From Antedon bifida (taxonomy: Eukaryota > Echinodermata > Crinoidea > Comatulida > Antedonidae): DNA of 64,000 bases. The position numbers and the translations under genes are program-made. The stretch covers positions 2,108,001 through 2,172,000 of the forward strand of contig OY727100.1 in assembly GCA_963402885.1 (NCBI GenBank). The letters are read 5' to 3'. The notes below the pieces were generated by a model, which saw only the letters and a program-made list of their open reading frames with translations, was not told the DNA's origin and searched no databases. Positions 30,278-64,000 of the stretch are shown here, in pieces (position 1 is the stretch's first letter; every line of letters starts with the position of its first letter).

Positions 30278-33200
30278 GTAAAAAAATAAAAGGGTCGAAA
30301 TTTGGCCATTTTTCGAAATTTCCCTTTTTATTTTTTGATACTAATAGCATAATTGACATGCGCAGAACCCATTATTCGACTCTGCGCATGTTTATTATGC
30401 TATAGTAACCATTCGAAAATTGTCCATTTTTCGAAAATTTTCCTGTACTATAGTATAGGGATTTTTTCAAAAAATGACCAATTTTAGACCTTTTTATTTT
30501 TCGATAAAACTGGTTACTATAGCACAATTGACATGCGCAGAACCCATTATTCGACTCTGCGCATGTTTATTATGCTATAGTAACCATTTATGTAAAAAAA
30601 CAAAAGGGTCGAAAAATAGTCATTTTTCAAAAATTTCCCTAACTATAGTACAGGGATTTTTTCAAAAAATGACCAATTTTAGACCTTTTTATTTATCGAT
30701 AAAACTGGTTACTATAACACAATTGACATGCGCAGAACCCATTATTCGACTATTCGCATGTTTATTATGCTATAGTAACCATTTATGTCAAAAAATAAAA
30801 GGGTAAAAAATGACAATTTTTCGAAAATTTCCCTTAATATAGTACAGGGATTTTTTCAAAAAATGACAAATTTTCGACCTTTTTATTTTTTGACATAAAT
30901 GGTTACTATAGCACAATTGACATGCGCAGAACGCATTATTCGACTCTGCGCATGTTTATAATGCTATAGTAACCATTTATGTCAAAAAAAAAAAGGGTCG
31001 AAAATTGGCCATTTTTCCAAAATTTCCCTCACTATAGTACAGGGATTTTTTCAAAAAATGACCAATTTTCTACCTTTTTATTTTTTCCTATAGCACAATT
31101 GATATGCGCAGAACCCATTATTCGACTCTGCGCATGTTTATTATGCTATAGTAACCATTTATGTCAAAAAATAAAAGTGTCGAAAATTGGCCATTATTCG
31201 AAAATTTCCCTTACTATAGTACAGCGATTTTTTCAAAAAATGACCAATTTTCGACCGTTTTATTTTTCAATAAAACTGGTTACTATAGCACAATTGACAT
31301 GCGCAGAACCCATTATTCGACTCTGCGCATGTTTATTATGCTATAGTAACCATTTATGTCAAAAAATAAAATGGTCAAAAAATGGCCATTTTTCGAAAAT
31401 TTCCCTTGTACAGGGATTTTTTCAAAAAATGACCAATTTTCGACCTTTTTATTTTTTGACATAAATGGTTACTATAGCACAATTGACATGCGCAGAACGC
31501 ATTATTCGACTCTGCGCATGTTTATAATGCTATAGTAACCATTTATGTCAAAAAATAAAAGGGTCGAAAATTGGCCATTTTTCCAAAATTTCCCTTACTA
31601 TAGTACAGGGATTTTTTCAAAAAATGACCAATTTTCGACCGTTTTATTTTTCGATAAAACTGGTTACTATAGCACAATTGACATGCGCAGAACCCTTTAT
31701 TCGACTCTGCGCATGTTTATTATGCTATAGTAACCATTTATGTCAAAAAATAAAAGGGTAAAAAAATGGCCATTTTTCGAAAATTTCCCTTACTATAGTA
31801 CAGGGATTTTTTCAAAAAAATGACCATATTTCGACCGTTTTATTTTTTGACATAAATGGTTACTATAGCACAATTGACATGCGCAGAACCCATTATTCGA
31901 CTCTGCGCATGTTTATTATGCTATAGTAACCATTTATGTCAAAAAATAAAAGGGTTGTAAAATGGCCAATTTTCGAAAATTTCCCTTACTATAGTACAGG
32001 GATTTTTTCAAAAAATGACCAATTTTCGACCTTTTTATTTTTCGATAAAACTGGTTACTATAGCACAATTGACATGCGCAGAACGCATTATTCGACTCTG
32101 CGCATGTTTATAATGCTATAGTAACCATTTATGTCAAAAAATAAAAGGGTCGAAAATTGGCCATTTTTCGAAAATTTCCCTTACTATAGTACAGGGATTT
32201 TTTCCAAAAATGACCAATTTTCGACCTTTTTAATTTTTGTATAAAACTGGTTACTATAGCACAATTGACATGCGCAGAACGCATTATTCGACTCTGCGCA
32301 TGTTTATTATGCTATAGTAACCATTTATGTCAAAAAATAAAAGGGTAGAAAAATGGCCATTTTTCGAAAATTTCCCTTACTATAGTACAGGGATTTTTTC
32401 AAAAAATGACCAATTTTCGACCTTTTTATTTTTCGATAAAACTGGTTACTATAGCACAATTGACATGCGCAGAACCCATTATTCGACTCTGCGCATGTTT
32501 ATTATGCCATAGTAACCATTTATGTAAAAAAATAAAAGGGTCGAAAAATGGGCATTTTTCGAAAAATTCCCTTACTATAGTATAGGGATTTTTTCAAAAA
32601 ATGACCAATTTTCGACCGTTTTATTTTTCAACAAAACTGGTTACTATAGCACAATTGACATGCGCAGAACCCATTATTCGACTCTGCGCATGTTTATTAT
32701 GCTATAGTAACCATTTATGTAAAAAAATAAAACGGTCGAAAAATTGCCATTTTTTTCGAAAATTTCCCTTACTATAGTACAGGGATTTTTTAAAAAAATG
32801 ACTAATTTTCGACCGTTTTATTTTTCAATAAAACTGGTTACTATAGCACAATTGACATGCGCAGAACCCATTATTCGACTCTGCGCATGTTTATTATGCT
32901 ATAGTAACCATTTATGTCAAAAAATAAAAGGGGTAAAAAAATGGCCATTTTTCGAAAATTTTCCTTACTATAGTACAGGGATTTTTTTTAAAAAAAGACC
33001 AATTTTCGACCTTTTTATTTTTTGACATAAATGGTTACTATAGCACAATTGACATGCGCAGAACGCATTATTCGACTCTGCGCATGTTTATAATGCTATA
33101 GTAACGATTTATGTCAAAAAATAAAAGGGTAAAAAATTGGCCATTTTTCGAAAATTTCCCTTACTATAGTACAGGGATTTTTTTCCAAAAATGACCAATT

Positions 33201-34870
33201 TTCAATTTTTTTAATTTTTGTATAAAACTGGTTACTATAGCATAATTGACATGCGCAGAACCCATTATTCGACTCTGCGCATGTTTATTATGCTATAGTA
33301 ACCATTTATGAAAAAAAAATAAAAGGGTCGAAAAATGGCCATTTTTCGAAAAATTCCCTTACTATAGTACAGGGATTTTTTCTAAAAATGACCAATTTTC
33401 GACCTTTTTTTTTCGATAAAACTGGTTACTATAGCACAATTGATATGCGCAGAACCCATTATTCGACTCTGCGCATGTTTATTATGCTATAGTAACCATT
33501 TATGTCAAAAAATAAAAGTGTCGAAAATTGGCCATTTTTCGAAAATTTCCCTTACTATAGTACAGGGATTTTTTCAAAAAATGACCAATTTTCGACCGTT
33601 TTATTTTTTGACATAAATGGTTACTATAGCACAATTGACATGCGCAGAACCCATTATTCGACTCTGCGCATGTTTATTATGCTATAGTAACCATTTATGT
33701 CAAAAAATAAAAGGCGTAAAAAAATGGCAATTTTTCGAAAATTTCCCTTACTATAGTACAGGGATGTTTTCAAAAAATGACCAATTTTCGACCTTTTTAT
33801 TTTTTGACATAAATGGTTACTATAGCACAATTGACATGCGCAGAACGCATTATTCGACTCTGCGCATGTTTATAATGCTATAGTAACCATTTATGTCAAA
33901 AAATAAAACGGTCGAAAATTGGCCATTTTTCGAAAATTTCCCTTACTATAGTACAGGGATTTTTTCCAAAAATGACCAATTTTCGACCTTTTTAATTTTT
34001 GTATAAAACTGGTTACTATAGCACAATTGACATGCGCAGAACCCATTATTCGATTCTACGCATGTTTATTATGCTATAGTAACCATTTATGTCAAAAAAT
34101 AAAAGGGTTGAAAAATGGCCATTTTTCGAAAATTTCCCTTACTATAGTACAGGGATTTTTTCAAAAAATGACCAATTTTCGACCTTTTTATTTTTCGATA
34201 AAACTGGTTACTATAGCACAATTGACATGCGCAGAACGCATTATTCGACTCTGCGCATGCTTATAATGCTATAGTAATCATTTATGTCAAAAAATAAAAG
34301 GGTCGAAAATTTGCCATTTTTCGAAAATTTCCCTTACTATACATAGTACAGGGATTTTTTCCAAAAATTACAAATTTTCGACCTTTTTATTTTTCGATAA
34401 AACTGGTTACTATAGCACAATTGACATGCGCAGAACCCATTATTCGACTCTGCGCATGTTTATAATGCTATAGTAACCATTTATGTCAAAAAATAAAAGG
34501 GTCAAAAATTTGCCATTTTTCGAAAATTTCCCTTACTATAGTACAGGGATTTTTTCAAAAAATGACCAATTTTCGACCGTTTTATTTTTCAATAAAACTG
34601 GTTACTATAGCACAATTGACATGCGCAGAACCCATTATTCGACTCTGCGCATGTTTATTATGCTATAGTAACCATTTATGTCAAAAAATAAAAGGGGTCA
34701 AAAAATGGCCATTTTTCGAAAATTTTCCTTAATATAGTACAGGGATTTTTCTAAAAAATGACCAATTTTCGACCTTTTTATTTTTTGACATAAATGGTTA
34801 CTATAGCACAATTGACATGCGCAGAACGCATTATTTGACTCTGCGCATGTTTATAATGCTATAGTAACGA
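30278..34870 (+). repeat. Degenerate left edge of the satellite
   Basis: Monomers here are the most diverged and show no regular higher-order period. The first lacks the TACTATAGTA centre (TTTCCC runs straight into TTTTTATTTTTTGA near 30330). Another, near 31085, has lost the CGATAAAACTGG segment, and several have odd A- or T-run lengths. Such decay toward an array edge is expected where unequal exchange is rare. Confidence 0.8.
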
Positions 34871-34873
34871 TTT

Positions 34874-37800
34874 ATGTCAAAAAATAAAAGGGTTGAAAAT
34901 TGGCCATTTTTCGAAAATTTACCTTACTATAGTACAGGGATTTTTTCCAAAAATGACCAATTTTCGACCTTTTTATTTTTCGATAAAACTGGTTACTATA
35001 GCACAATTGACATGCGCAGAACCCATTATTCGACTCTGCGCATGTTTATTATGCTATAGTAACCATTTATGTCAAAAAATAAAAGGGTAAAAAAATGGCC
35101 ATTTTTCGAAAATTTTCCCTACTATAGTACAGGGATTTTTTCAAAAAATGACCAATTTTCGACCTTTTTATTTTTCGATAAAACTGGTTACTATAGCACA
35201 ATTAACATGCGCAGAACCCATTATTCGACTCTGCGCATGTTTATTATGCTATAGTAACCATTTATGTCAAAAAATAAAAGGGTCAAAAAATGGCCATTTT
35301 TCGAAAATTTCCCTTACTATAGTACAGGGATTTTTTCAAAAAATAACCAATTTTCGACCTTTTTATTTTTCGATAAAACTGGTTACTATAGCACAATTGA
35401 CATGCGCAGAACCCATTATTCGACTCTGCGCATGTTTATTATGCTATAGTAACCATTTATGTCAAAAAATAAAAGGGGTCAAAAAATGGCCATTTTTCGA
35501 AAATTTTCCTTACTATAGTACAGGGATTTTTCTAAAAAATGACAAATTTTCGACCTTTTTATTTTTTGACATAAATGGTTACTATAGCACAATTGACATG
35601 CGCAGAACGCATTATTTGACTCTGCGCATGTTTATAATGCTATAGTAACGATTTATGTCAAAAAATAAAAGGGTTGAAAATTGGCCATTTTTCGAAAATT
35701 TCCCTTACTATAGTACAGGGATTTTTTCAAAAAATGACCAATTTTCGACCTTTTTATTTTTCGATAAAACTGGTTACTATAGCACAATTGACATGCGCAG
35801 AACCCATTATTCGACTCTGCGCATGTTTATAATGCTATAGTAACCATTTATGTCAAAAAATAAAAGGGTCAAAAATTGGCCATTTTTCGAAAATTTCCCT
35901 TACTATAGTACAGGGATTTTTTCAAAAAATGACCAATTTTCGACCGTTTTATTTTTCGATAAAACTGGTTACTATAGCACAATTGACATGCGCAGAACCC
36001 ATTATTCGACTCTGCGCATGTTTATTATGCTATAGTAACCATTTATGTCAAAAAATAAAAGGGGTCAAAAAATGGCCATTTTTCGAAAATTTTCCTTACT
36101 ATAGTACAGGGATTTTTCTAAAAAATGACCAATTTTCGACCTTTTTATTTTTTGACATAAATGGTTACTATAGCACAATTGACATGCGCAGAACGCATTA
36201 TTTGACTCTGCGCATGTTTATAATGCTATAGTAACGATTTATGTCAAAAAATAAAAGGGTTGAAAATTGGCCATTTTTCGAAAATTTCCCTTACTATAGT
36301 ACAGGGATTTTTTCCAAAAATGACCAATTTTCGACCTTTTTATTTTTCGATAAAACTGGTTACTATAGCACAATTGACATGCGCAGAACCCATTATTCGA
36401 CTCTGCGCATGTTTATTATGCTATAGTAACCATTTATGTCAAAAAATAAAAGGGTAAAAAAATGGCCATTTTTCGAAAATTTTCCCTACTATAGTACAGG
36501 GATTTTTTCAAAAAATGACCAATTTTCGACCTTTTTATTTTTCGATAAAACTGGTTACTATAGCACAATTAACATGCGCAGAACCCATTATTCGACTCTG
36601 CGCATGTTTATTATGCTATAGTAACCATTTATGTCAAAAAATAAAAGGGTCAAAAAATGGCCATTTTTCGAAAATTTCCTTTACTATAGTACAGGGATTT
36701 TTTCAAAAAATAACCAATTTTCGACCTTTTTATTTTTCGATAAAACTGGTTACTATAGCACAATTGACATGCGCAGAACCCATTATTCGACTCTGCGCAT
36801 GTTTATAATGCTATAGTAACCATTTATGTCAAAAAATAAAAGGGTCAAAAATTGGCCATTTTTCGAAAATTTCCCTTACTATAGTACAGGGATTTTTTCA
36901 AAAAATGACCAATTTTCGACCGTTTTATTTTTCAATAAAACTGGTTACTATAGCACAATTGACATGCGCAGAACCCATTATTCGACTCTGCGCATGTTTA
37001 TTATGCTATAGTAACCATTTATGTCAAAAAATAAAAGGGGTCAAAAAATGGCCATTTTTCGAAAATTTTCCTTACTATAGTACAGGGATTTTTCTAAAAA
37101 ATGACCAATTTTCGACCTTTTTATTTTTTGACATAAATGGTTACTATAGCACAATTGACATGCGCAGAACGCATTATTTGACTCTGCGCATGTTTATAAT
37201 GCTATAGTAACGATTTATGTCAAAAAATAAAAGGGTTGAAAATTGGCCATTTTTCGAAAATTTCCCTTACTATAGTACAGGGATTTTTTCCAAAATCCGA
37301 TAAAACTGGTTACTATAGCACAATTGACATGCGCAGAACCCATTATTCGACTCTGCGCATGTTTATAATGCTATAGTAACAAATAAAAGGGTCAAAAATT
37401 GGCCATTTTTCGAAAATTTCCCTTACTATAGTACAGGGATTTTTTCAAAAAATGACCAATTTTCGACCGTTTTATTTTTCAATAAAACTGGTTACTATAG
37501 CACAATTGACATGCGCAGAACCCATTATTCGACTCTGCGCATGTTTATTATGCTATAGTAACCATTTATGTCAAAAAATAAAAGGGGTCAAAAAATGGCC
37601 ATTTTTCGAAAATTTTCCTTACTATAGTACAGGGATTTTTCTAAAAAATGACCAATTTTCGACCTTTTTATTTTTTGACATAAATGGTTACTATAGCACA
37701 ATTGACATGCGCAGAACGCATTATTTGACTCTGCGCATGTTTATAATGCTATAGTAACGATTTATGTCAAAAAATAAAAGGGTTGAAAATTGGCCATTTT

Positions 37801-38740
37801 TCGAAAATTTCCCTTACTATAGTACAGGGATTTTTTCCAAAAATGACCAATTTTCGACCTTTTTATTTTTCGATAAAACTGGTTACTATAGCACAATTGA
37901 CATGCGCAGAACCCATTATTCGACTCTGCGCATGTTTATTATGCTATAGTAACCATTTATGTCAAAAAATAAAAGGGTAAAAAAATGGCCATTTTTCGAA
38001 AATTTTCCCTACTATAGTACAGGGATTTTTTCAAAAAATGACCAATTTTCGACCTTTTTATTTTTCGATAAAACTGGTTACTATAGCACAATTAACATGC
38101 GCAGAACCCATTATTCGACTCTGCGCATGTTTATTATGCTATAGTAACCATTTATGTCAAAAAATAAAAGGGTCAAAAAATGGCCATTTTTCGAAAATTT
38201 CCTTTACTATAGTACAGGGATTTTTTCAAAAAATAACCAATTTTCGACCTTTTTATTTTTCGATAAAACTGGTTACTATAGCACAATTGACATGCGCAGA
38301 ACCCATTATTCGACTCTGCGCATGTTTATTATGCTATAGTAACCATTTATGTCAAAAAATAAAAGGGGTCAAAAAATGGCCATTTTTCGAAAATTTTCCT
38401 TACTATAGTACAGGGATTTTTCTAAAAAATGACCAATTTTCGACCTTTTTATTTTTTGACATAAATGGTTACTATAGCACAATTGACATGCGCAGAACGC
38501 ATTATTTGACTCTGCGCATGTTTATAATGCTATAGTAACGATTTATGTCAAAAAATAAAAGGGTTGAAAATTGGCCATTTTTCGAAAATTTCCCTTACTA
38601 TAGTACAGGGATTTTTTCAAAAAATGACCAATTTTCGACCTTTTTAATTTTTGTATAAAACTGGTTACTATAGCACAATTGACATGCGCAGAACCCATTA
38701 TTCGACTCTGCGCATGTGTATTATGCTATAGTAACCATTT
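34874..38740 (+). repeat. Satellite higher-order repeat block A
   Basis: Monomer subtypes recur in a fixed order, with a 976-bp (five-monomer) step from 36241 to 37217. A shortened step follows (547 bp to 37764) because two small deletions, near 37297 and 37380, remove 38 bases from three monomers. Much of the block reappears 6221 bp downstream. Confidence 0.85.
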
Positions 38741-40950
38741 ATGTCAAAAAATAAAAGGGTCGAAAAATGGGCATTTTTCGATAAATTCCCTTACTATAGT
38801 ACAGGGATTTTTTCAAAAAATGACCAATTTTCGACCGTTTTATTTTTCAACAAAACTGGTTACTATAGCACAATTGACATGCGCAGAACCCATTATTCGA
38901 CTCTGCGCATGTTTATTATGCTATAGTAACCATTTATGTCAAAAAATAAAAGGGGTAAAAAAATGGCCATTTTTCGAAAATTTCCCTTACTATAGTACAG
39001 GGATTTTTTCCAAAAATGACCAATTTTCGACCTTTTTAATTTTTATATAAAACTGGTTACTATAGCATAATTGACATGCGCAGAACCCATTATTCGACTC
39101 TGCGCATGTTTATTATGCTATGCTATATGCCATTTATGTCAAAAAATAAAAGGGGTAAAAAAATGGCAATTTTTCGAAAATTTCCCTTACTATAGTACAG
39201 GGATTTTTTCAAAAAATGACCAATTTTCGACCTTTTTATTTTTCGATAAAACTGGTTACTATAGCACAATTGACATGCGCAGAACCCATTATTCGAATCT
39301 GCGCATGTTTATTATGCTATTGTAACCATTTATGTCAAAAAATAAAAAGGGTCAATAAATGGCCATTTTTCGAAAATTTCCCTTACTATAGTACAGGGAT
39401 TTTTTCAAAAAATGACCAATTTTCGACCTTTTTAATTTTTGCATAAAACTGGTTACTATAGCACAATTGACATGCGCAGAACGCATTATTCGACTCTGCG
39501 CATGTTTATTATGCTATAGTAACCATTTATGTCAAAAAATAAAAGGGTAGAAAAATGGCCATTTTTCGAAAATTTCCCTTACTATAGTACAGGGATTTTT
39601 TCAAAAAATGACCAATTTTCGACCTTTTTATTTTTCGATAAAACTGGTTACTATAGCACAATTGACATGCGCAGAACCCATTATTCGACTCTGCGCATGT
39701 TTAATATGCTATAGTAACCATTTATGTCAAAAAATAAAAGGGTCAAAAAATGGCCATTTTTCGAAAATTTCCCTTACTATAGTACAGGGATTTTTTCAAA
39801 AAATGACCAATTTTCGACCTTTTTATTTTTCGATAAAACTGGTTACTATAGCACAATTGACATGCGCAGAACCCATTATTCGACTCTGCGCATGTTTATA
39901 ATGCTATAGTAACCATTTATGTCAAAAAATAAAAGGGGTAAAAAAATGGCCATTTTTCGAAAATTTTCCTTACTATAGTACAGGGATTTTTCTAAATAAT
40001 TACCAATTTTCGACCTTTTTATTTTTGGACATAAATGGTTACTATAGCACAATTGACATGCGCAGAACGCATTATTTGACTCTGCGCATGTTTATAATGC
40101 TATAGTAACGATTTATGTCAAAAAATAAAAGGGTCGAAAATTGGCCATTTTTCGAAAATTTCCCTTACTATAGTACAGGGATTTTTTCCAAAAATGACCA
40201 ATTTTCGACCTTTTTAATTCTTGTATAAAACTGGTTACTATAGCATAATTGACATGCGCAGAACCCATTATTCGACTCTGCGCATGTTTATTATGCTATA
40301 GTAACCATTTATGTCAAAAAATAAAAGGGGTAAAAAAATGGCCATTTTTCGAAAATTTCCCTTACTATAGTACAGGGATTTTTTCAAAAAATGACCAATT
40401 TTCGACCTTTTTATTTTTCGATAAAACTGGTTACTATAGCACAATTGACATGCGCAGAACCCATTATTCGACTCTGCGCATGTTTATAATGCTATAGTAA
40501 CCATTTATGTCAAAAAATAAAAGGGGTAAAAAAATGGCCATTTTTCGAAAATTTTCCTTACTATAGTACAAGGATTTTTCTAAATAATTACCAATTTTCG
40601 ACCTTTTTATTTTTGGACATAAATGGTTACTATAGCACAATTGACATGCGCAGAACGCATTATTTGACTCTGCGCATGTTTATAATGCTATAGTAACGAT
40701 TTATGTCAAAAAATAAAAGGGTCGAAAATTGGCCATTTTTCGAAGATTTCCCTTACTATAGTACAGGGATTTTTTCCAAAAATGACCAATTTTCGACCTT
40801 TTTAATTTTTGTATAAAACTGGTTACTATAGCATAATTGACATGCGCAGAACCCATTATTCGACTCTGCGCATGTTTATTATGCTATAGTAACCATTTAT
40901 GTCAAAAAATAAAAGGGGTAAAAAAATGGCCATTTTTCGAAAATTTTCCT
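38212..40950 (+). repeat. Satellite block B (also at +10333 bp)
   Basis: This 2.7-kb segment matches about 48545-51285 at a constant offset of 10333 bp. Shared oddities include the TATGCTATGCTATATGCC junction (39113 and 49446 regions) and a CAATAAATGG monomer. Its right part (about 39724-40950) occurs a third time near 59257-60480. Confidence 0.85.
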
Positions 40951-41094
40951 TAATATAGTACAGGGATTTTTCTAAAAAATGACCAATTTTCGACCTTTTT
41001 ATTTTTTGACATAAATGGTTACTATAGCACAATTGACATGCGCAGAACGCATTATTTGACTCTGCGCATGTTTATAATGCTATAGTAACGATTT

Positions 41095-44000
41095 ATGTCA
41101 AAAAATAAAAGGGTTGAAAATTGGCCATTTTTCGAAAATTTACCTTACTATAGTACAGGGATTTTTTCCAAAAATGACCAATTTTCGACCTTTTTATTTT
41201 TCGATAAAACTGGTTACTATAGCACAATTGACATGCGCAGAACCCATTATTCGACTCTGCGCATGTTTATTATGCTATAGTAACCATTTATGTCAAAAAA
41301 TAAAAGGGTAAAAAAATGGCCATTTTTCGAAAATTTTCCCTACTATAGTTCAGGGATTTTTTCAAAAAATGACCAATTTTCGACCTTTTTATTTTTCGAT
41401 AAAACTGGTTACTATAGCACAATTAACATGCGCAGAACCCATTATTCGACTCTGCGCATGTTTATTATGCTATAGTAACCATTTATGTCAAAAAATAAAA
41501 GGGTCAAAAAATGGCCATTTTTCGAAAATTTCCCTTACTATAGTACAGGGATTTTTTCAAAAAATAACCAATTTTCGACCTTTTTATTTTTCGATAAAAC
41601 TGGTTACTATAGCACAATTGACATGCGCAGAACCCATTATTCGACTCTGCGCATGTTTATTATGCTATAGTAACCATTTATGTCAAAAAATAAAAGGGGT
41701 CAAAAAATGGCCATTTTTCGAAAATTTTCCTTACTATAGTACAGGGATTTTTCTAAAAAATGACAAATTTTCGACCTTTTTATTTTTTGACATAAATGGT
41801 TACTATAGCACAATTGACATGCGCAGAACGCATTATTTGACTCTGCGCATGTTTATAATGCTATAGTAACGATTTATGTCAAAAAATAAAAGGGTTGAAA
41901 ATTGGCCATTTTTCGAAAATTTCCCTTACTATAGTACAGGGATTTTTTCAAAAAATGACCAATTTTCGACCTTTTTATTTTTCGATAAAACTGGTTACTA
42001 TAGCACAATTGACATGCGCAGAACCCATTATTCGACTCTGCGCATGTTTATAATGCTATAGTAACCATTTATGTCAAAAAATAAAAGGGTCAAAAATTGG
42101 CCATTTTTCGAAAATTTCCCTTACTATAGTACAGGGATTTTTTCAAAAAATGACCAATTTTCGACCGTTTTATTTTTCGATAAAACTGGTTACTATAGCA
42201 CAATTGACATGCGCAGAACCCATTATTCGACTCTGCGCATGTTTATTATGCTATAGTAACCATTTATGTCAAAAAATAAAAGGGGTCAAAAAATGGCCAT
42301 TTTTCGAAAATTTTCCTTACTATAGTACAGGGATTTTTCTAAAAAATGACCAATTTTCGACCTTTTTATTTTTTGACATAAATGGTTACTATAGCACAAT
42401 TGACATGCGCAGAACGCATTATTTGACTCTGCGCATGTTTATAATGCTATAGTAACGATTTATGTCAAAAAATAAAAGGGTTGAAAATTGGCCATTTTTC
42501 GAAAATTTCCCTTACTATAGTACAGGGATTTTTTCCAAAAATGACCAATTTTCGACCTTTTTATTTTTCGATAAAACTGGTTACTATAGCACAATTGACA
42601 TGCGCAGAACCCATTATTCGACTCTGCGCATGTTTATTATGCTATAGTAACCATTTATGTCAAAAAATAAAAGGGTAAAAAAATGGCCATTTTTCGAAAA
42701 TTTTCCCTACTATAGTACAGGGATTTTTTCAAAAAATGACCAATTTTCGACCTTTTTATTTTTCGATAAAACTGGTTACTATAGCACAATTAACATGCGC
42801 AGAACCCATTATTCGACTCTGCGCATGTTTATTATGCTATAGTAACCATTTATGTCAAAAAATAAAAGGGTCAAAAAATGGCCATTTTTCGAAAATTTCC
42901 TTTACTATAGTACAGGGATTTTTTCAAAAAATAACCAATTTTCGACCTTTTTATTTTTCGATAAAACTGGTTACTATAGCACAATTGACATGCGCAGAAC
43001 CCATTATTCGACTCTGCGCATGTTTATAATGCTATAGTAACCATTTATGTCAAAAAATAAAAGGGTCAAAAATTGGCCATTTTTCGAAAATTTCCCTTAC
43101 TATAGTACAGGGATTTTTTCAAAAAATGACCAATTTTCGACCGTTTTATTTTTCAATAAAACTGGTTACTATAGCACAATTGACATGCGCAGAACCCATT
43201 ATTCGACTCTGCGCATGTTTATTATGCTATAGTAACCATTTATGTCAAAAAATAAAAGGGGTCAAAAAATGGCCATTTTTCGAAAATTTTCCTTACTATA
43301 GTACAGGGATTTTTCTAAAAAATGACCAATTTTCGACCTTTTTATTTTTTGACATAAATGGTTACTATAGCACAATTGACATGCGCAGAACGCATTATTT
43401 GACTCTGCGCATGTTTATAATGCTATAGTAACGATTTATGTCAAAAAATAAAAGGGTTGAAAATTGGCCATTTTTCGAAAATTTCCCTTACTATAGTACA
43501 GGGATTTTTTCCAAAAATGACCAATTTTCGACCTTTTTATTTTTCGATAAAACTGGTTACTATAGCACAATTGACATGCGCAGAACCCATTATTCGACTC
43601 TGCGCATGTTTATTATGCTATAGTAACCATTTATGTCAAAAAATAAAAGGGTAAAAAAATGGCCATTTTTCGAAAATTTTCCCGACTATAGTACAGGGAT
43701 TTTTTCAAAAAATGACCAATTTTCGAACTTTTTATTTTTCGATAAAACTGGTTACTATAGCACAATTAACATGCGCAGAACCCATTATTCGACTCTGCGC
43801 ATGTTTATTATGCTATAGTAACCATTTATGTCAAAAAATAAAAGGGTCAAAAAATGGCCATTTTTCGAAAATTTCCTTTACTATAGTACAGGGATTTTTT
43901 CAAAAAATAACCAATTTTCGACCTTTTTATTTTTCGATAAAACTGGTTACTATAGCACAATTGACATGCGCAGAACCCATTATTCGACTCTGCGCATGTT

Positions 44001-44340
44001 TATTATGCTATAGTAACCATTTATGTCAAAAAATAAAAGGGGTCAAAAAATGGCCATTTTTCGAAAATTTTCCTTACTATAGTACAGGGATTTTTCTAAA
44101 AAATGACAAATTTTCGACCTTTTTATTTTTTGACATAAATGGTTACTATAGCACAATTGACATGCGCAGAACGCATTATTTGACTCTGCGCATGTTTATA
44201 ATGCTATAGTAACGATTTATGTCAAAAAATAAAAGGGTTGAAAATTGGCCATTTTTCGAAAATTTCCCTTACTATAGTACAGGGATTTTTTCAAAAAATG
44301 ACCAATTTTCGACCTTTTTAATTTTTGTATAAAACTGGTT
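41095..44340 (+). repeat. Satellite block A' (copy of block A at +6221 bp)
   Basis: Successive monomers match 34874 onward at exactly 6221 bp. The 37217 equivalent (43438) lacks the 38-base deletion, so the deletion in block A came after the duplication. The 976-bp step is visible from 42462 to 43438. Confidence 0.85.
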
Positions 44341-47204: not shown

Positions 47205-47208
47205 TATA
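47205..47208. other. Target-site duplication TATA, left
   Basis: The TATA that ends CTTTACTATA before the element. It is repeated after the element, while uninterrupted monomers read ACTATAGTAC with one TATA. Confidence 0.88.
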
Positions 47209-48540
47209 CTGCCCTGTCATGAAAGAACGACTCAACTGACACATTTTTCAAAAATCACTTTTTTAGCTTTTTGGGCTATTTAGGGAACAATACACCTTGT
47301 GGTATATTCAGATATTTAAAATTTTGACTAGAAATATGAAATTTAAAATTCAAAATACCACTCAATTGCAAGTGTGTGTTACTATTGTCATCAAAGACTA
47401 ACTCAACTGCAAATGTCATGAAAGACTCACTCAATTGACATATTAACACCTATTATGTCATAGGAAACCCATTCAAGTGCACAACAATGGTGTTTACTGC
47501 ACAGCAAGCTGTGTACTCAAATGTTCTTGTTTTAAACATTAAATAATTTGGTACTGCCCTACTAATAATTGTCAATATTTATTTTATTCAATACTTACTT
47601 AAACTTATTTAGTTATTATTAGAGTATTAATTATATTTTTCGAATATTCAGAATTAAATACCCCGGAGAGACTACTGTATGTGAACACCATTATGCTATT
47701 ATTGAATATTCTCCCTCTTAAATTATTACTTAAAACTAAAAATAAAAAATACAAGAAACATGAAAAACAATATTTTAAACTTATTTTTAGATACAAATAT
47801 ATGTACACACTATTATATATACAGAAAAGTGGGAAATTTGATTGTAGCAATATAACGACGGTAGTGTCCAGACAAAAATAATTTAAAAAATGAATGAATT
47901 AAATATCATGCCTTAAAAGGTGTCATTATTTTGAATAACATATATTCTTGTTCATTTTCCTCTAATGAAATAATATCACATATAAATTCATTCTTTATAA
48001 GCAAAAACCCCAATTAGTCTTAGGCTTAGCTTATAACAAGCCAAAAAACGCACAGGCAGACAATGGGCTTTGGGTGCCTTATATGACGTAGACAAAATTG
48101 GCCTAGGAACATAAATCATTTAAAAAATCACTATATAACTAAGTATTATATGAACTAAAGTCTTATTATCAAATTATTAAATAATATAAAATGTTTTTTA
48201 TATATTTTTACGTTAAATTAGTACTTTCTTGAAAATACATTTTGTAGTTGAGTTGATTCTTTCATGACAAATGCAGTTGAGTCAGTCTTTCGTGATTTTC
48301 TTGTGTATGATTGACCAAGAATGTTATGAAAAAACAGTAAAACTGACATATCTAAAATTAGAGTCAGTAAATTTAATAAAACTTTCTACACAATAAAGAG
48401 TACTTATATGTACTACTAAAAGGTGTGAAAATCAAAATAATACTATCTACACATAAGAAGGGCTAAAACAATAACACGTTTTGTTGATTATCTCAAAACT
48501 TTGGTTTATGCAGTTGAGTCGTTCTTTCATGACGGGGCAG
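47209..48540. mobile_element. 1332-bp inverted-repeat transposon inserted in the satellite
   Basis: The left end CTGCCCTGTCATGAAAGAAC + GACTCAACTG and the complement of the right end differ at one of 30 positions. TATA occurs on both sides (47205-47208 and 48541-48544), while uninterrupted monomers have it once. Copies of TCAACTGCAAATGTCATGAAAGA-type motifs lie inside both ends in opposite orientation. The longest frames are about 66-81 codons, so it is non-autonomous. The superfamily is not assigned. Confidence 0.93.
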
Positions 48541-48544
48541 TATA
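48541..48544. other. Target-site duplication TATA, right
   Basis: Second TATA copy, directly after GGGGCAG, followed by the rest of the monomer (GTACAGGGATTTTTTC). Confidence 0.88.
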
Positions 48545-51500: not shown

Positions 51501-52013
51501 CCAAAAATGACCAATTTTCGACCGTTTTATTTTTCAATAAAACTGGTTACTATAGCACAATTGACATGCGCAGAACGCATTATTCGACTCTGCGCATGTT
51601 TATTATGCTATAGTAACCATTTATGTCAAAAAATAAAAGGGTTGAAAAATGGCAATTTTTCTAAAATTTCCCTTACTATAGTACAGGGATTTTTTCAAAA
51701 AATGACCAATTTTCGACCTTTTTATTTTTCGATAAAACTGGTTACTATAGCACAATTGACATGCGCAGAACGCATTATTCGACTCTGCGCATGCTTATAA
51801 TGCTATAGTAATCATTTATGTCAAAAAATAAAAGGGTCGAAAATTTGCCATTTTTCGAAAATTTCCCTTACTATAGTACAGGGATTTTTTCCAAAAATTA
51901 CAAATTTTCGACCTTTTTAATTTTTGTATAAAACTGGTTACTATAGCACAATTGACATGCGCAGAACCCATTATTCGATTCTGCGCATGTTTATTATGCT
52001 ATAGTAACCATTT

Positions 52014-55000
52014 ATGTCAAAAAATAAAAGGGTTGAAAAATGGCCATTTTTCGAAAATTTCCCTAACTATAGTACAGGGATTTTTTCAAAAAATGACCAA
52101 TTTTCGACCTTTTTATTTTTCGATAAAACTGGTTACTATAGCACAATAGACATACGCAGAAGGCATTATTCGACTCTGCGCATGTTTATAATTGGCCATT
52201 TTTCGAAAATTTCCCTAACTATAGTACAGGGATTTTTTCAAAAAATGACCAATTTTCGACCTTTTTATTTTTCGATAAAACTGGTTACTATAGCACAATA
52301 GACATACGCAGAAGGCATTATTCGACTCTGCGCATGTTTATAATTGGCCATTTTTCGAAAATTTCCCTTACTATAGTACAGGGATTTTTTCCAAAAATTA
52401 CAAATTTTCGACCTTTTTATTTTTCGATAAAACTGGTTACTATAGCACAATTGACATGCGCAGAACCCATTATTCGACTCTGCGCATGTTTATTATGCTA
52501 TAGTAACCATTTATGTCAAAAAATAAAAGGGTTGAAAATTTGCCATTTTTCGAAAATTTACCTTACTATAGTACAGGGATTTTTTCCAAAAATGACCAAT
52601 TTTCGACCTTTTTATTTTTCGATAAAACTGGTTACTATAGCACAATTGACATGCGCAGAACCCATTATTCGACTCTGCGCATGTTTATTATGCTATAGTA
52701 ACCATTTATGTCAAAAAATAAAAGGGTAGAAAAATGGCCATTTTTCGAAAATTTTCCCTACTATAGTACAGGGATTTTTTCAAAAAATGACCAATTTTCG
52801 ACCTTTTTATTTTTCGATAAAACTGGTTACTATAGCACAATTAACATGCGCAGAACCCATTATTCGACTCTGCGCATGTTTATTATGCTATAGTAACCAT
52901 TTATGTAAAAAAATAAAAGGGTCAAAAAATGGCCATTTTTCGAAAATTTCCCTTACTATAGTACAGGGATTTTTTCAAAAAATAACCAATTTTCGACCTT
53001 TTTATTTTTCGATAAAACTGGTTACTATAGCACAATTGACATGCGCAGAACCCATTATTCGACTCTGCGCATGTTTATTATGCTATAGTAACCATTTATG
53101 TCAAAAAATAAAAGGGGTCAAAAAATGGCCATTTTTCGAAAATTTTCCTTACTATAGTACAGGGATTTTTCTAAAAAATGACAAATTTTCGACCTTTTTA
53201 TTTTTTGACATAAATGGTTACTATAGCACAATTGACATGCGCAGAACGCATTATTTGACTCTGCGCATGTTTATAATGCTATAGTAACGATTTATGTCAA
53301 AAAATAAAAGGGTTGAAAATTGGCCATTTTTCGAAAATTTCCCTTACTATAGTACAGGGATTTTTTCCAAAAATTACAAATTTTCGACCTTTTTATTTTT
53401 CGATAAAACTGGTTACTATAGCACAATTGACATGCGCAGAACCCATTATTCGACTCTGCGCATGTTTATTATGCTATAGTAACCATTTATGTCAAAAAAT
53501 AAAAGGGTTGAAAATTTGCCATTTTTCGAAAATTTACCTTACTATAGTACAGGGATTTTTTCCAAAAATGACCAATTTTCGACCTTTTTATTTTTCGATA
53601 AAACTGGTTACTATAGCACAATTGACATGCGCAGAACCCATTATTCGACTCTGCGCATGTTTATTATGCTATAGTAACCATTTATGTCAAAAAATAAAAG
53701 GGTAAAAAAATGGCCATTTTTCGAAAATTTTCCCTACTATAGTACAGGGATTTTTTCAAAAAATGACCAATTTTCGACCTTTTTATTTTTCGATAAAACT
53801 GGTTACTATAGCACAATTAACATGCGCAGAACCCATTATTCGACTCTGCGCATGTTTATTATGCTATAGTAACCATTTATGTCAAAAAATAAAAGGGTCA
53901 AAAAATGGCCATTTTTCGAAAATTTCCCTTACTATAGTACAGGGATTTTTTCAAAAAATAACCAATTTTCGACCTTTTTATTTTTCGATAAAACTGGTTA
54001 CTATAGCACAATTGACATGCGCAGAACCCATTATTCGACTCTGCGCATGTTTATTATGCTATAGTAACCATTTATGTCAAAAAATAAAAGGGGTCAAAAA
54101 ATGGCCATTTTTCGAAAATTTTCCTTACTATAGTACAGGGATTTTTCTAAAAAATGACAAATTTTCGACCTTTTTATTTTTTGACATAAATGGTTACTAT
54201 AGCACAATTGACATGCGCAGAACGCATTATTTGACTCTGCGCATGTTTATAATGCTATAGTAACGATTTATGTCAAAAAATAAAAGGGTTGAAAATTGGC
54301 CATTTTTCGAAAATTTCCCTTACTATAGTACAGGGATTTTTTCCAAAAATTACAAATTTTCGACCTTTTTATTTTTCGATAAAACTGGTTACTATAGCAC
54401 AATTGACATGCGCAGAACCCATTATTCGACTCTGCGCATGTTTATTATGCTATAGTAACCATTTATGTCAAAAAATAAAAGGGTAAAAAAATGGCCATTT
54501 TTCGAAAATTTTCCCTACTATAGTACAGGGATTTTTTCCAAAAATGACCAATTTTCGACCTTTTTATTTTTCGATAAAACTGGTTACTATAGCACAATTG
54601 ACATGCGCAGAACCCATTATTCGACTCTGCGCATGTTTATTATGCTATAGTAACCATTTATGTCAAAAAATAAAAGGGTAAAAAAATGGCCATTTTTCGA
54701 AAATTTTCCCTACTATAGTACAGGGATTTTTTCAAAAAATGACCAATTTTCGACCTTTTTATTTTTCGATAAAACTGGTTACTATAGCACAATTGACATG
54801 CGCAGAACCCATTATTCGACTCTGCGCATGTTTATAATGCTATAGTAACCATTTATGTCAAAAAATAAAAGGGTCAAAAATTGGCCATTTTTCGAAAATT
54901 TCCCTTACTATAGTACAGGGATTTTTTCAAAAAATGACCAATTTTCGACCGTTTTATTTTTCAACAAAACTGGTTACTATAGCACAATTGACATGCGCAG

Positions 55001-55440
55001 AACCCATTATTCGACTCTGCGCATGTTTATTATGCTATAGTAACCATTTATGTCAAAGAATAAAAGGGGTCAAAAAATGGCCATTTTTCGAAAATTTCCC
55101 TTACTATAGTACAGGGATTTTTCTAAAAAATGACCAATTTTCGACCTTTTTATTTTTTGACATAAATGGTTACTATAGCACAATTGACATGCGCAGAACG
55201 CATTATTTGACTCTGCGCATGTTTATAATGCTATAGTAACGATTTATGTCAAAAAATAAAAGGGTTGAAAATTGGCCATTTTTCGAAAATTTCCCTTACT
55301 ATAGTACAGGGATTTTTTCCAAAAATGACCAATTTTCGACCTTTTTATTTTTCGATAAAACTGGTTACTATAGCACAATTGACATGCGCAGAACCCATTA
55401 TTCGACTCTGCGCATGTTTATTATGCTATAGTAACCATTT
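52014..55440 (+). repeat. Satellite block C, first copy of a 3427-bp duplication
   Basis: About 18 monomers, including the two 152-bp units, are repeated directly downstream at an offset of 3427 bp. Inside are three successive 976-bp steps (52318, 53294, 54270, 55246). Confidence 0.88.
52040..52345 (+). repeat. Two shortened 152-bp satellite monomers
   Basis: In these units GCATGTTTATA joins directly to ATTGGCCATTTTTCG, losing 43 bases including the GCTATAGTAACC arm. The left hairpin arm is also altered (GACATACGCAGAAGG instead of GACATGCGCAGAACC). The same pair recurs 3427 bp downstream at about 55467-55772. Confidence 0.85.
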
Positions 55441-58400
55441 ATGTCAAAAAATAAAAGGGTAAAAAAATGGCCATTTTTCGAAAATTTTCCCTACTATAGT
55501 ACAGGGATTTTTTCAAAAAATGACCAATTTTCGACCTTTTTATTTTTCGATAAAACTGGTTACTATAGCACAATAGACATACGCAGAAGGCATTATTCGA
55601 CTCTGCGCATGTTTATAATTGGCCATTTTTCGAAAATTTCCCTAACTATAGTACAGGGATTTTTTCAAAAAATGACCAATTTTCGACCTTTTTATTTTTC
55701 GATAAAACTGGTTACTATAGCACAATAGACATACGCAGAAGGCATTATTCGACTCTGCGCATGTTTATAATTGGCCATTTTTCGAAAATTTCCCTTACTA
55801 TAGTACAGGGATTTTTTCCAAAAATTACAAATTTTCGACCTTTTTATTTTTCGATAAAACTGGTTACTATAGCACAATTGACATGCGCAGAACCCATTAT
55901 TCGACTCTGCGCATGTTTATTATGCTATAGTAACCATTTATGTCAAAAAATAAAAGGGTTGAAAATTTGCCATTTTTCGAAAATTTACCTTACTATAGTA
56001 CAGGGATTTTTTCCAAAAATGACCAATTTTCGACCTTTTTATTTTTCGATAAAACTGGTTACTATAGCACAATTGACATGCGCAGAACCCATTATTCGAC
56101 TCTGCGCATGTTTATTATGCTATAGTAACCATTTATGTCAAAAAATAAAAGGGTAGAAAAATGGCCATTTTTCGAAAATTTTCCCTACTATAGTACAGGG
56201 ATTTTTTCAAAAAATGACCAATTTTCGACCTTTTTATTTTTCGATAAAACTGGTTACTATAGCACAATTAACATGCGCAGAACCCATTATTCGACTCTGC
56301 GCATGTTTATTATGCTATAGTAACCATTTATGTAAAAAAATAAAAGGGTCAAAAAATGGCCATTTTTCGAAAATTTCCCTTACTATAGTACAGGGATTTT
56401 TTCAAAAAATAACCAATTTTCGACCTTTTTATTTTTCGATAAAACTGGTTACTATAGCACAATTGACATGCGCAGAACCCATTATTCGACTCTGCGCATG
56501 TTTATTATGCTATAGTAACCATTTATGTCAAAAAATAAAAGGGGTCAAAAAATGGCCATTTTTCGAAAATTTTCCTTACTATAGTACAGGGATTTTTCTA
56601 AAAAATGACAAATTTTCGACCTTTTTATTTTTTGACATAAATGGTTACTATAGCACAATTGACATGCGCAGAACGCATTATTTGACTCTGCGCATGTTTA
56701 TAATGCTATAGTAACGATTTATGTCAAAAAATAAAAGGGTTGAAAATTGGCCATTTTTCGAAAATTTCCCTTACTATAGTACAGGGATTTTTTCCAAAAA
56801 TTACAAATTTTCGACCTTTTTATTTTTCGATAAAACTGGTTACTATAGCACAATTGACATGCGCAGAACCCATTATTCGACTCTGCGCATGTTTATTATG
56901 CTATAGTAACCATTTATGTCAAAAAATAAAAGGGTTGAAAATTTGCCATTTTTCGAAAATTTACCTTACTATAGTACAGGGATTTTTTCCAAAAATGACC
57001 AATTTTCGACCTTTTTATTTTTCGATAAAACTGGTTACTATAGCACAATTGACATGCGCAGAACCCATTATTCGACTCTGCGCATGTTTATTATGCTATA
57101 GTAACCATTTATGTCAAAAAATAAAAGGGTAAAAAAATGGCCATTTTTCGAAAATTTTCCCTACTATAGTACAGGGATTTTTTCAAAAAATGACCAATTT
57201 TCGACCTTTTTATTTTTCGATAAAACTGGTTACTATAGCACAATTAACATGCGCAGAACCCATTATTCGACTCTGCGCATGTTTATTATGCTATAGTAAC
57301 CATTTATGTCAAAAAATAAAAGGGTCAAAAAATGGCCATTTTTCGAAAATTTCCCTTACTATAGTACAGGGATTTTTTCAAAAAATAACCAATTTTCGAC
57401 CTTTTTATTTTTCGATAAAACTGGTTACTATAGCACAATTGACATGCGCAGAACCCATTATTCGACTCTGCGCATGTTTATTATGCTATAGTAACCATTT
57501 ATGTCAAAAAATAAAAGGGGTCAAAAAATGGCCATTTTTCGAAAATTTTCCTTACTATAGTACAGGGATTTTTCTAAAAAATGACAAATTTTCGACCTTT
57601 TTATTTTTTGACATAAATGGTTACTATAGCACAATTGACATGCGCAGAACGCATTATTTGACTCTGCGCATGTTTATAATGCTATAGTAACGATTTATGT
57701 CAAAAAATAAAAGGGTTGAAAATTGGCCATTTTTCGAAAATTTCCCTTACTATAGTACAGGGATTTTTTCCAAAAATTACAAATTTTCGACCTTTTTATT
57801 TTTCGATAAAACTGGTTACTATAGCACAATTGACATGCGCAGAACCCATTATTCGACTCTGCGCATGTTTATTATGCTATAGTAACCATTTATGTCAAAA
57901 AATAAAAGGGTAAAAAAATGGCCATTTTTCGAAAATTTTCCCTACTATAGTACAGGGATTTTTTCCAAAAATGACCAATTTTCGACCTTTTTATTTTTCG
58001 ATAAAACTGGTTACTATAGCACAATTGACATGCGCAGAACCCATTATTCGACTCTGCGCATGTTTATTATGCTATAGTAACCATTTATGTCAAAAAATAA
58101 AAGGGTAAAAAAATGGCCATTTTTCGAAAATTTTCCCTACTATAGTACAGGGATTTTTTCAAAAAATGACCAATTTTCGACCTTTTTATTTTTCGATAAA
58201 ACTGGTTACTATAGCACAATTGACATGCGCAGAACCCATTATTCGACTCTGCGCATGTTTATAATGCTATAGTAACCATTTATGTCAAAAAATAAAAGGG
58301 TCAAAAATTGGCCATTTTTCGAAAATTTCCCTTACTATAGTACAGGGATTTTTTCAAAAAATGACCAATTTTCGACCGTTTTATTTTTCAACAAAACTGG

Positions 58401-58867
58401 TTACTATAGCACAATTGACATGCGCAGAACCCATTATTCGACTCTGCGCATGTTTATTATGCTATAGTAACCATTTATGTCAAAGAATAAAAGGGGTCAA
58501 AAAATGGCCATTTTTCGAAAATTTCCCTTACTATAGTACAGGGATTTTTCTAAAAAATGACCAATTTTCGACCTTTTTATTTTTTGACATAAATGGTTAC
58601 TATAGCACAATTGACATGCGCAGAACGCATTATTTGACTCTGCGCATGTTTATAATGCTATAGTAACGATTTATGTCAAAAAATAAAAGGGTTGAAAATT
58701 GGCCATTTTTCGAAAATTTCCCTTACTATAGTACAGGGATTTTTTCCAAAAATGACCAATTTTCGACCTTTTTATTTTTCGATAAAACTGGTTACTATAG
58801 CACAATTGACATGCGCAGAACCCATTATTCGACTCTGCGCATGTTTATTATGCTATAGTAACCATTT
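55441..58867 (+). repeat. Satellite block C', second copy of the 3427-bp duplication
   Basis: Monomer by monomer copy of 52014-55440, including rare variants such as CAAAGAATAAAAGG (55055 and 58482 regions) and the short monomers. It is a recent tandem duplication judging from the near identity. Confidence 0.88.
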
Positions 58868-61070
58868 ATGTCAAAAAATAAAAGGGTAAAAAAATGGCCA
58901 TTTTTCGAAAATTTTCCCTACTATAGTACAGGGATTTTTTCAAAAAATGACCAATTTCGACCTTTTTATTTTTCGATAAAACTGGTTACTATAGCACAAT
59001 TAACATGCGCAGAACCCATTAATCGACTCTGCGCATGTTTATTATGCTATAGTAACCATTTATGTCAAAAAATAAAAGGGTCAAAAAATGGCCATTTTTC
59101 GAAAATTTCCCTTACTATAGTACAGGGATTTTTTCAAAAAATAACCAATTTTCGACCTTTTTATTTTTCGATAAAACTGGTTACTATAGCACAATTGACA
59201 TGCGCAGAACCCATTATTCGACTCTGCGCATGTTTATTATGCTATAGTAACCATTTATGTCAAAAAATAAAAGGGTCAAAAAATGGCCATTTTTCGAAAA
59301 TTTTCCTTACTATAGTACAGGGATTTTTTCAAAAAATGACCAATTTTCGACCTTTTTATTTTTCGATAAAACTGGTTACTATAGCACAATTGACATGCGC
59401 AGAACCCATTATTCGACTCTGCGCATGTTTATAATGCTATAGTAACCATTTATGTCAAAAAATAAAAGGGGTAAAAAAATGGCCATTTTTCGAAAATTTT
59501 CCTTACTATAGTACAGGGATTTTTCTAAATAATTACCAATTTTCGACCTTTTTATTTTTGGACATAAATGGTTACTATAGCACAATTGACATGCGCAGAA
59601 CGCATTATTTGACTCTGCGCATGTTTATAATGCTATAGTAACGATTTATGTCAAAAAATAAAAGGGTCGAAAATTGGCCATTTTTCGAAAATTTCCCTTA
59701 CTATAGTACAGGGATTTTTTCCAAAAATGACCAATTTTCGACCTTTTTAATTTTTGTATAAAACTGGTTACTATAGCATAATTGACATGCGCAGAACCCA
59801 TTATTCGACTCTGCGCATGTTTATTATGCTATAGTAACCATTTATGTCAAAAAATAAAAGGGGTAAAAAAATGGCCATTTTTCGAAAATTTCCCTTACTA
59901 TAGTACAGGGATTTTTTCAAAAAATGACCAATTTTCGACCTTTTTATTTTTCGATAAAACTGGTTACTATAGCACAATTGACATGCGCAGAACCCATTAT
60001 TCGACTCTGCGCATGTTTATAATGCTATAGTAACCATTTATGTCAAAAAATAAATGGGGTAAAAAAATGGCCATTTCTCGAAAATTTTCCTTACTATAGT
60101 ACAGGGATTTTTCTAAATAATTACCAATTTTCGACCTTTTTATTTTTGGACATAAATGGTTACTATAGCACAATTGACATGCGCAGAACGCATTATTTGA
60201 CTCTGCGCATGTTTATAATGCTATAGTAACGATTTATGTCAAAAAATAAAAGGGTCGAAAATTGGCCATTTTTCGAAGATTTCCCTTACTTATAGTACAG
60301 GGATTTTTTCCAAAAATGACCAATTTTCGACCTTTTTAATTTTTGTATAAAACTGGTTACTATAGCATAATTGACATGCGCAGAACCCATTATTCGACTC
60401 TGCGCATGTTTATTATGCTATAGTAACCATTTATGTCAAAAAATAAAAGGGGTAAAAAAATGGCCATTTTTCGAAAATTTCCCTTACTATAGTACAGGGA
60501 TTTTTTCAAAAAATGACCAATTTTCGACCTTTTTATTTTGCGATAAAACTGGTTACTATAGCACAATTGACATGCGCAGAACGCATTATTCGACTCTGCG
60601 CATGTTTATTATGCTATAGTAACCATTTATGTCAAAAAATAAAAGGGTCGAAAATTGGCCATTTTTCGAAAATTTCCCTTACTATAGTATAGGGATTTTT
60701 TCAAAAAATGACCAATTTTCGACCGTTTTATTTTTCAATAAAACTGGTTACTATAGCACAATTGACATGCGCAGAACCCATTATTCGATTCTGCGAATGT
60801 TTATTATGCTATAGTAACCATTTATGTAAAAAAATAAAAGGGTCGAAAAATGGCCATTTTTCGAAAAATTCCCTTACTATAGTACAGGGATTTTTTCAAA
60901 AAATGACCAATTTTCGACCTTTTTATTTTTCGATAAAACTGGTTACTATAGCACAATTGACATGCGCAGAACCCATTATTCGACTCTGCACATGTTTATT
61001 ATGCTATAGTAACCATTTATGTCAAAAAATAAAAGGGGTAAAAAAATGGCCATTTTTCGAAAATTTCCCT

Positions 61071-62460
61071 GTCCAAAAATAAAAAGGTCGAAAATTGGTA
61101 ATTATTTAGAAAAATCCCTGTACTATAGTAAGGAAAATTTTCGAAAAATGGCCATTTTTTTACCCCTTTTATTTTTTGACATAAATGGTTACTATAGCAT
61201 TATAAACATGCGCAGAGTCGAATAATGGGTTCTGCGCATGTCAATTGTGCTATAGTAACCAGTTTTATCGAAAAATAAAAAGGTCGAAAATTGGTCATTT
61301 TTTGAAAAAATCCCTGTACTATAGTAAGGAAAATTTTCGAAAAATGGCCATTTTTTGACCCTTTTATTTTTTGACATAAATGGTTACTATAGCATAATAA
61401 ACATGCGCAGAGTCGAATAATGGGTTCTGCGCATGTCAATTGTGCTATAGTAACCAGTTTTATCGAAAAATAAAAAGGTCGAAAATTGGTTATTTTTTGA
61501 AAAAATCCCTGTACTATAGTAAGGGAAATTTTCGAAAAATGGCCATTTTTTGACCCTTTTATTTTTTGACATAAATGGTTACTATAGCATAATAAACATG
61601 CGCAGAGTCGAATAATGGGTTCTGCGCATGTTAATTGTGCTATAGTAACCAGTTTTATCGAAAAATAAAAAGGTCGAAATTGGTCATTTTTTGAAAAAAT
61701 CCCTGTACTATAGTAGGGAAAATTTTCGAAAAATGGCCATTTTTTTACCCTTTTATTTTTTGACATAAATGGTTACTATAGCATAATAAACATGCGCAGA
61801 GTCGAATAATGGGTTCTGCGCATGTCAATTGTGCTATAGTAACCAGTTTTATCGAAAAATAAAAAGGTCGAAAATTGGTCATTTTTGGAAAAAATCCCTG
61901 TACTATAGTAAGGGAAATTTTCGAAAAATGGCCAATTTTCAACCCTTTTATTTTTTGACATAAATCGTTACTATAGCATTATAAACATGCGCAGAGTCGA
62001 ATAATGCGTTCTGCGCATGTCAATTGTGCTATAGTAACCAGTTTTATACAACAATTAAAAAGGTCAAAATTGGTCATTTTTGGAAAAAATCCCTATACTA
62101 TAGTAAGGAAAATTTTCGAAAAATGGCCAATTTTCGACCCTTTTATTTTTTAACATAAATGGTTACTATAGCATTATAAACATGCGCAGAGTCGAATAAT
62201 GCGTTCTGCGCATGTCAATTATGCTATAGTAACCAGTTTTATCGAAAAATAAAAAGGTCGAAAATTGGTCATTTTTTGAAAAAATCCCTGTACTACAGTA
62301 AGGGAAATTTTCGAAAAATGGCCATTTTTCAACCCTTTTATTTTTTGACATAAATGGTTACTATAGCATATTAAACATGAGCAGAGTCGAATAATGCGTT
62401 CTGCGCATGTCAATTGTGCTATAGTAACCAGTTTTATCGAAAAATAAAAAGGTCGAAAAT
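61071..62460 (-). repeat. Inverted satellite segment
   Basis: Monomer orientation flips to minus after TTTCCCT|GTCCAAAAATAAAA near 61071 and returns to plus at about 62460 (GTCGAAAAT|TGACATGCGC). The first 0.9 kb or so is an inverted copy of about 58673-59563. It shares a one-base deletion (CCAATTTCGACC, one T short) seen near 58953 on the plus strand. Confidence 0.9.
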
Positions 62461-64000
62461 TGACATGCGCAGAACCCATTATTCGACTCTGCACATGTTT
62501 ATTATGGTATAGTAACCATTTATGTCAAAAAATAAAAGGGTTGAAAATTGGCCATTTTTCGAAAATTTCCCTTACTATAGTACAGGGATTTTTTCCAAAA
62601 ATTACAAATTTTCGACCTTTTTATTTTTCGATAAAACTGGTTACTATAGCACAATTGACATGCGCAGAACCCATTATTCGACTCTGCGCATGTTTATTAT
62701 GCTATAGTAACCATTTATGTCAAAAAATAAAAGGGTAAAAAAATGGCCATTTTTCGAAAATTTTCCCTACTATAGTACAGGGATTTTTTCCAAAAATGAC
62801 AAATTTTCGACCGTTTTATTTTTCGATAAAACTGGTTACTATAGCACAATTGACATGCGCAGAACCCATTATTCGACTCTGCGCATGTTTATTATGCTAT
62901 AGTAACCATTTATGTCAAAAAATAAAAGGGGTCAAAAAATGGCCATTTTTCGAAAATTTCCCTTACTATAGTACAGGGATTTTTTCAAAAAATGACAAAT
63001 TTTCGACCTTTTTATTTTGCGATAAAACTGGTTACTATAGCACAATTGACATGCGCAGAACCCATTATTCGACTCTGCGCATGTTTATTATGCTATAGTA
63101 ACCATTTATGTCAAAAAATAAAAGGCGTAAAAAAATGGCCATTTTTCGAAAATTTCCCTTACTATAGTACAGGGATTTTTTCAAAAAATGACCAATTTTC
63201 GACCGTTTTATTTTTCAATAAAACTGGTTACTATAGCACAATTGACATGCGCAGAACCCATTATTCGACTCTGCGCATGTTTATTATGCTATAGTAACCA
63301 TTTATGTCAAAAAATAAAAGGGGTCAAAAAATGGCCATTTTTCGAAAATTTCCCTTACTATAGTACAGGGATTTTTTCAAAAAATGACCAATTTTCGACC
63401 GTTTTATTTTTCAATAAAACTGGTTACTATAGCACAATTGACATGCGCAGAACCCATTATTCGACTCTGCGCATGTTTATTATGCTATAGTAACCATTTA
63501 TGTCAAAAAATAAAAGGGGTCAAAAAATGGCCATTTTTCGAAAATTTCCCTTACTATAGTACAGGGATTTTTTCAAAAAATGACCAATTTTCGACCTTTT
63601 TATTTTGCGATAAAACTGGTTACTATAGCACAATTGACATGCGCAGAACCCATTATTCGACTCTGCACATGTTTATTATGCTATAGTAACCATTTATGTC
63701 AAAAAATAAAAGGGGTAAAAAAATGGCCATTTTTCGAAAATTTCCCTTACTATAGTACAGGGATTTTTTCAAAAAATGACCAATTTTCGACCTTTTTATT
63801 TTGCGATAAAACTGGTTACTATAGCACAATTGACATGCGCAGAACCCATTATTCGACTCTGCGCATGTTTATTATGCTATAGTAACCATTTATGTCAAAA
63901 AATAAAAGGGTCAAAAAATGGCCATTTTTCGAAAATTTCCCTTACTATAGTACAGTGATTTTTTCAAAAAAATGACAAATTTTCGACCGTTTTATTTTTC

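Follow-up and report, generated by a model that had tools for sequence, protein, structure and literature searches.

Satellite DNAs in which inverted repeats span the whole monomer are described as rare in PMC13081366. The excerpted text of that paper terms longer intra-repeat dyads 'not so common' and assigns the rare long intra-monomer dyads to satellites of Tribolium brevicornis and Trichogramma brassicae and to TmSat2. The major satellite of T. brevicornis (Mravinac et al. 2005, as described in PMC13081366) carries inverted segments of ~470 bp within 1061 bp. TmSat2 of Tribolium madens has a 704-bp monomer with ~300-bp imperfect inverted repeats from a shared older unit, adjoins a related satellite and has inverted subarrays (PMC13081366). 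Here we describe satellite X in a 64,000-nucleotide stretch of DNA from the crinoid Antedon bifida (assembly GCA_963402885.1, contig OY727100.1, here C13; the window is C13:2108001-2172000). This satellite is interstitial and homogenised, and each of its monomers joins a ~98-bp half-unit to a related half-unit in inverted orientation.

Structurally, X is a satellite with whole-monomer dyads, for which the T. brevicornis satellite and TmSat2 are precedents. The likeness is one of structure, and no kinship is claimed. As in T. brevicornis, the monomer contains long inverted segments, but the beetle monomer is five times longer, whereas X fits two dyads into 195 bp and has one-dyad relatives at its array edges. 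TmSat2 resembles X in having inverted repeats from a shared older unit, a related satellite nearby and inversion within the array. However, its monomer is long and built of several subunits and, in the excerpts of PMC13081366, probably occupies (peri)centromeric megabases, while X forms short interstitial arrays, of which that of the window lies close to genes and includes a single small inverted block. X is a real, uncommon and compact two-dyad satellite whose relatives have been retained.

The array begins at position 30278 of the window, a left limit set by blast with the consensus, and its 195-bp monomers run on for ~2 kb past the window's end to C13:2174044 (position 2044 of fetched locus L013), giving a total of ~35.8 kb including an insert. 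Tandem Repeats Finder reports a period of 195 bp (391 too) over 30413-64000 with breaks. The leftmost piece of the array (30271-30325) is a half-unit like that of the related satellite Z. The array blocks and an example of each dyad centre are:

30278..47208, plus strand: X array, first block (Tandem Repeats Finder, blast)
48541..64000, plus strand: X array, second block, extending beyond the window to C13:2174044 (Tandem Repeats Finder, blast)
31212..31221: dyad centre 1, an exact copy of TACTATAGTA
31301..31328: dyad centre 2, the loop motif GCGCAGA(14)TCTGCGC

Loop anchors number 160 on the plus strand of the window and 7 on the minus strand, and the window holds 151 exact copies of TACTATAGTA and 162 of GCGCAGA. 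The 149 whole plus-strand monomers excised from it are 94.6% identical in mean pairwise comparison. X has the hallmark of a satellite, homogenised monomers in long head-to-tail arrays, and shows block duplications as well.

A preliminary description of this DNA had held that the whole monomer is an inverted repeat with two dyad centres, TACTATAGTA and the GCGCAGA..TCTGCGC loop, and computation confirms this. Aligned with its own reverse complement in all rotations, the 195-bp consensus is identical in 158 of 196 columns (80.6%, score 118), far above every one of 300 dinucleotide shuffles (score 19.3 ± 5.4, maximum 38; identity at most 61.8%). Two inversely oriented subunits thus span most of the monomer. 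The arms are ~20% apart; in single monomers (50 of the 149, every third) their identity ranges from 74 to 84%, with a mean of 79.5%. The dyad centres lie at consensus positions 113 (dyad 1) and 14 (dyad 2) and are spaced 96 and 99 bp around the monomer, matching the half-units of ~98 bp proposed earlier. The predicted strong hairpin potential was also borne out by folding, with -91 kcal/mol for RNA against -29 ± 4 for shuffles (n = 200), and -49.8 for one real monomer as DNA against -15.8 ± 2.9, none of 200 shuffles being equally low. A suggested link to nucleosomes was not supported. The 10-bp power of AA/TT/TA is 0.57, against shuffle quartiles of 1.04, 2.22 and 3.81 (100 shuffles), and nucleosome phasing of X is rejected because this signal is missing.

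So stable a fold could mean that the hairpin is selected, either because transcripts give rise to small RNAs or because it has a role in chromatin. This is very improbable given the divergence of the arms and their lack of covariation. In the 404 monomers with both arms, double third-letter changes number 15 against 11.3 expected, not clearly above chance, and arms re-dealt among these monomers pair as well as real partners do. There is no excess of compensatory changes and hence no sign of selection for pairing, and selection on the hairpin is rejected on this ground. An Rfam scan of the window returned no family at gathering score, which argues against a selected hairpin and also leads us to reject a ribozyme-bearing satellite of the hammerhead type. 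X is probably a satellite without function.

A genome search gave at least 1031 matches, obtained from 36 of 456 candidate places scored. Several loci on C13, C8 and C1 carry the two-dyad monomer, with distinct edges. Most of the 26 fetched loci (labelled L) were picked beside matches, so no rate of occurrence is given. Neither X nor its relative Y matches L032 and L033, the two ends of C13, or L015, L018 and L027, and in L034 (C13:7.0 Mb) matches to them are limited to pieces with E 0.005. Four satellite pieces of 19 to 21 bases were matched in no paper of the literature searched, repeat libraries not being compared, and a search of a plasmid collection gave no match. The excerpts of PMC13081366 consider long dyads in connection with Tribolium centromeres, and X might likewise be a centromeric satellite whose cruciforms help to place the centromere. 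This is very improbable, since the interstitial C13 arrays are scattered at 1.08-3.9 and 13.6-14.1 Mb (among the matches listed), the window's array adjoins genes, and a 10-kb sample at C13:7.0 Mb is filled by a different satellite of 88 bp.

Beyond what the preliminary description reported, the array contains an insert, an inverted block and multi-kb block duplications, and other satellites lie at the edges of X arrays. The features internal to the array are:

47209..48540: transposon-like insert of 1332 bp, located at dyad centre 1, whose inverted ends (CTGCCC..GGGCAG) are 30 bp long
47205..47208 (left) and 48541-48544 (right): TATA target duplication, the middle of TACTATAGTA
~61071..62458, minus strand: seven monomers forming one inverted block, with approximate borders (7 minus anchors, 61218-62387)
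52456..58811, plus strand: exact block repeat, 15 monomers from 52456 again from 55883, end approximate

The 15-monomer block is repeated with 0 differences at an offset of 3427 bp and is either a very recent block duplication or an assembly duplication. A second block of 13 monomers is repeated with 9 differences at an offset of 10333 bp. The perfect repeat raises the question of whether the array length or the inverted block could be a joining error. Such an artefact is very unlikely, because the two-dyad monomer recurs at several loci on three contigs with distinct edges and C13 carries telomere repeats at both ends. At the right junction of the inverted block, AATTG is common to both sides (by eye).

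No transposase gene is apparent in the 1332-bp insert, where the longest stop-to-stop frame lying entirely inside has 97 codons. Transposon-like inserts starting with CTGCCC fall into two families (47209-48540; L013 from 2049 onward; L021 7796-9438), and all three adjoin TATA at X dyad centre 1. Near dyad centre 2, two X blocks are separated by ~6.4 kb (L025 4525 to L011 1020; C13:3864624-3871019), perhaps an insert; this stretch has the ends CCCAGTGGGC..GCCCACTGGG, and its middle was fetched in part.

Two relatives of X, Z and Y, are found at the edges of X-type arrays, and each has one half-unit in common with X. Z has a 187-bp unit and Y one of ~188 bp, each with one dyad. Z also has a separate 9.6-kb array:

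L026 276-9862 (C13:3876276-3885862): Z array, as far as the sequence covered reaches on its right

Other relatives are degenerate single units. A half-unit tree of 51 rows and 66 columns groups the left half of X (XL) with Z (97/92); 5 Y rows were retained and two from L014 were removed because they look Z-like. An approximately unbiased (AU) test does not reject grouping of XL with the right half, XR (p-AU 0.495). With single halves, 4 informative sites favour XL-Z/XR-Y and 2 favour XL-XR; with group consensuses, the counts are 2 and 2. The idea that X originated by joining one half from Z to one from Y was dropped as a claim on these grounds. A single inverted duplication followed by divergence, and a joining of two subfamilies, both stand.

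Sequence patches record traffic between the two arms. In the window and the fetched loci other than L001-L008, 869 arms were identified, of which 855 with >75% identity to their arm reference were retained. The references differ at 14 sites, and sites 55 and 60 were set aside because they mainly mark the window's L arms. At least three consecutive states of the other arm occur in 8 of 436 L arms and 43 of 419 R arms. Patch patterns vary by locus and run in both directions between L and R. The window holds 33 of the 43 patched R arms, in near-periodic positions, and these are likely to be copies of a few events. Partners of the 51 patched arms are unpatched in 43 cases, which fits one-way copying, and patched in 6 (3 monomers of one array, L011 and L025), which fits exchange; 2 had no partner found. 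Reciprocal exchange between the arms of a monomer is rejected as sole source of the patches, given the 43 unpatched partners. Patches of this sort would be expected from template switching, conversion or partial exchange. The reverse-complement copying described in PMC8794818, which makes a hairpin or mends pairing, is comparable, although the cases in the excerpts of that paper are RNA genes, and template switching in X is inferred for a satellite without sign of selection.

The edges of X-like blocks are concentrated at dyad 1. The 10 bp on either side of dyad 1 hold 13 of 37 edges and those around dyad 2 hold 2, with ~4 expected for each. Six L026 edges, three of them among the 13, were dropped because they reflect mere loss of similarity with Z, leaving 10 of 31. 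Counting the two sides of any insert as a single event, and likewise two loci that share a flank, reduces the 10 to 7 independent events, all within 6 bp of the centre. Three are transposon insertions with TATA beside the insert (window, L013 and L021; two element families). The other four are junctions with other DNA (L016, L019, L022 and L021/L023), with Y-like sequence near that of L019. Breakage and transposon insertion may favour the dyad centre TACTATAGTA.

The simplest history, and a probable one, is that X descends from a one-dyad unit of an older Z/Y family that acquired its second dyad, with amplification of multi-kb blocks following. The starting point would have been ~187-bp one-dyad satellites, in which one half-unit became joined, inverted, to another across a GCGCAGA hairpin, with a template switch during replication as the probable mechanism. 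The resulting two-dyad unit would then have been amplified by duplicating blocks of several kb. The hairpin itself would be a by-product, persisting because whole monomers are homogenised. The structure, the relatives, the block duplications and the cross-arm patches are seen directly in the arrays. A more tentative extension, which we think possible but doubtful, is that the arrays keep the steps from one-dyad to fully palindromic two-dyad units via template switches and that dyad 1 is extruded in vivo, making it a hot spot for breaks and TATA-duplicating transposons. Several caveats apply to these readings. The order from Z/Y to X is drawn from the position of Z at edges and its lower uniformity, a usual but not certain guide to age. 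Each consensus monomer has three CTATAG sites, so that three insertions all at dyad 1 are weak alone (1 in 27), and the break pattern was spotted prior to counting.

The preliminary description called an origin from tandemly amplified foldback elements plausible; on this view the monomer would be a foldback or miniature inverted-repeat transposon. Inverted ends of the CAGGGATTTTTTC kind do adjoin TA, and single Y-like and half-unit relics exist (L010 8508-8662, L028 212-261, L009 6341-6378). In the Xenopus satellites Xstir and miDNA4, linked with miniature inverted-repeat transposable elements (MITEs), inverted-repeat elements are likewise linked with tandem arrays, but there MITE copies are known (excerpts of PMC12628747). 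For X the single pieces are degenerate, and inspection by eye of the fragments listed showed no complete free-standing copy flanked by a target duplication, no systematic search having been made. Z and Y, as relatives of X, also occur in tandem, and a transposon origin is less likely than the gain of a second dyad.

X is well suited to the study of how palindromic satellites arise. Its short unit, one-dyad relatives and mosaic edge copies share a single chromosome assembled to both telomeres, so that formation of the unit, and attraction of breaks and transposons to dyads, can be tested by counting.

C13 measures 24.04 Mb of a 315.6-Mb genome in 27 contigs, with TTAGGG-type repeats at both ends. 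Genes in the window encode NPC1, PB1 and PDZ domains (Pfam), the last two presumably belonging to PAR-6. Between them, 17884-20580 contains a reverse transcriptase frame of 804 aa (RVT_1), a stop and then 93 aa. Minisatellites with 27/54-bp (CTGCAGTACTGGGATATT..) and 20-bp units lie near the array's left side, at 26828-27492 and 28615-28828. Elsewhere on C13, L034 173-9860 (7.0 Mb) consists almost entirely of the 88-bp satellite unlike X and is a candidate centromere region, and L032 1957-8370 contains blocks of a subtelomeric 148-bp repeat, several of them split by short telomere-like stretches.
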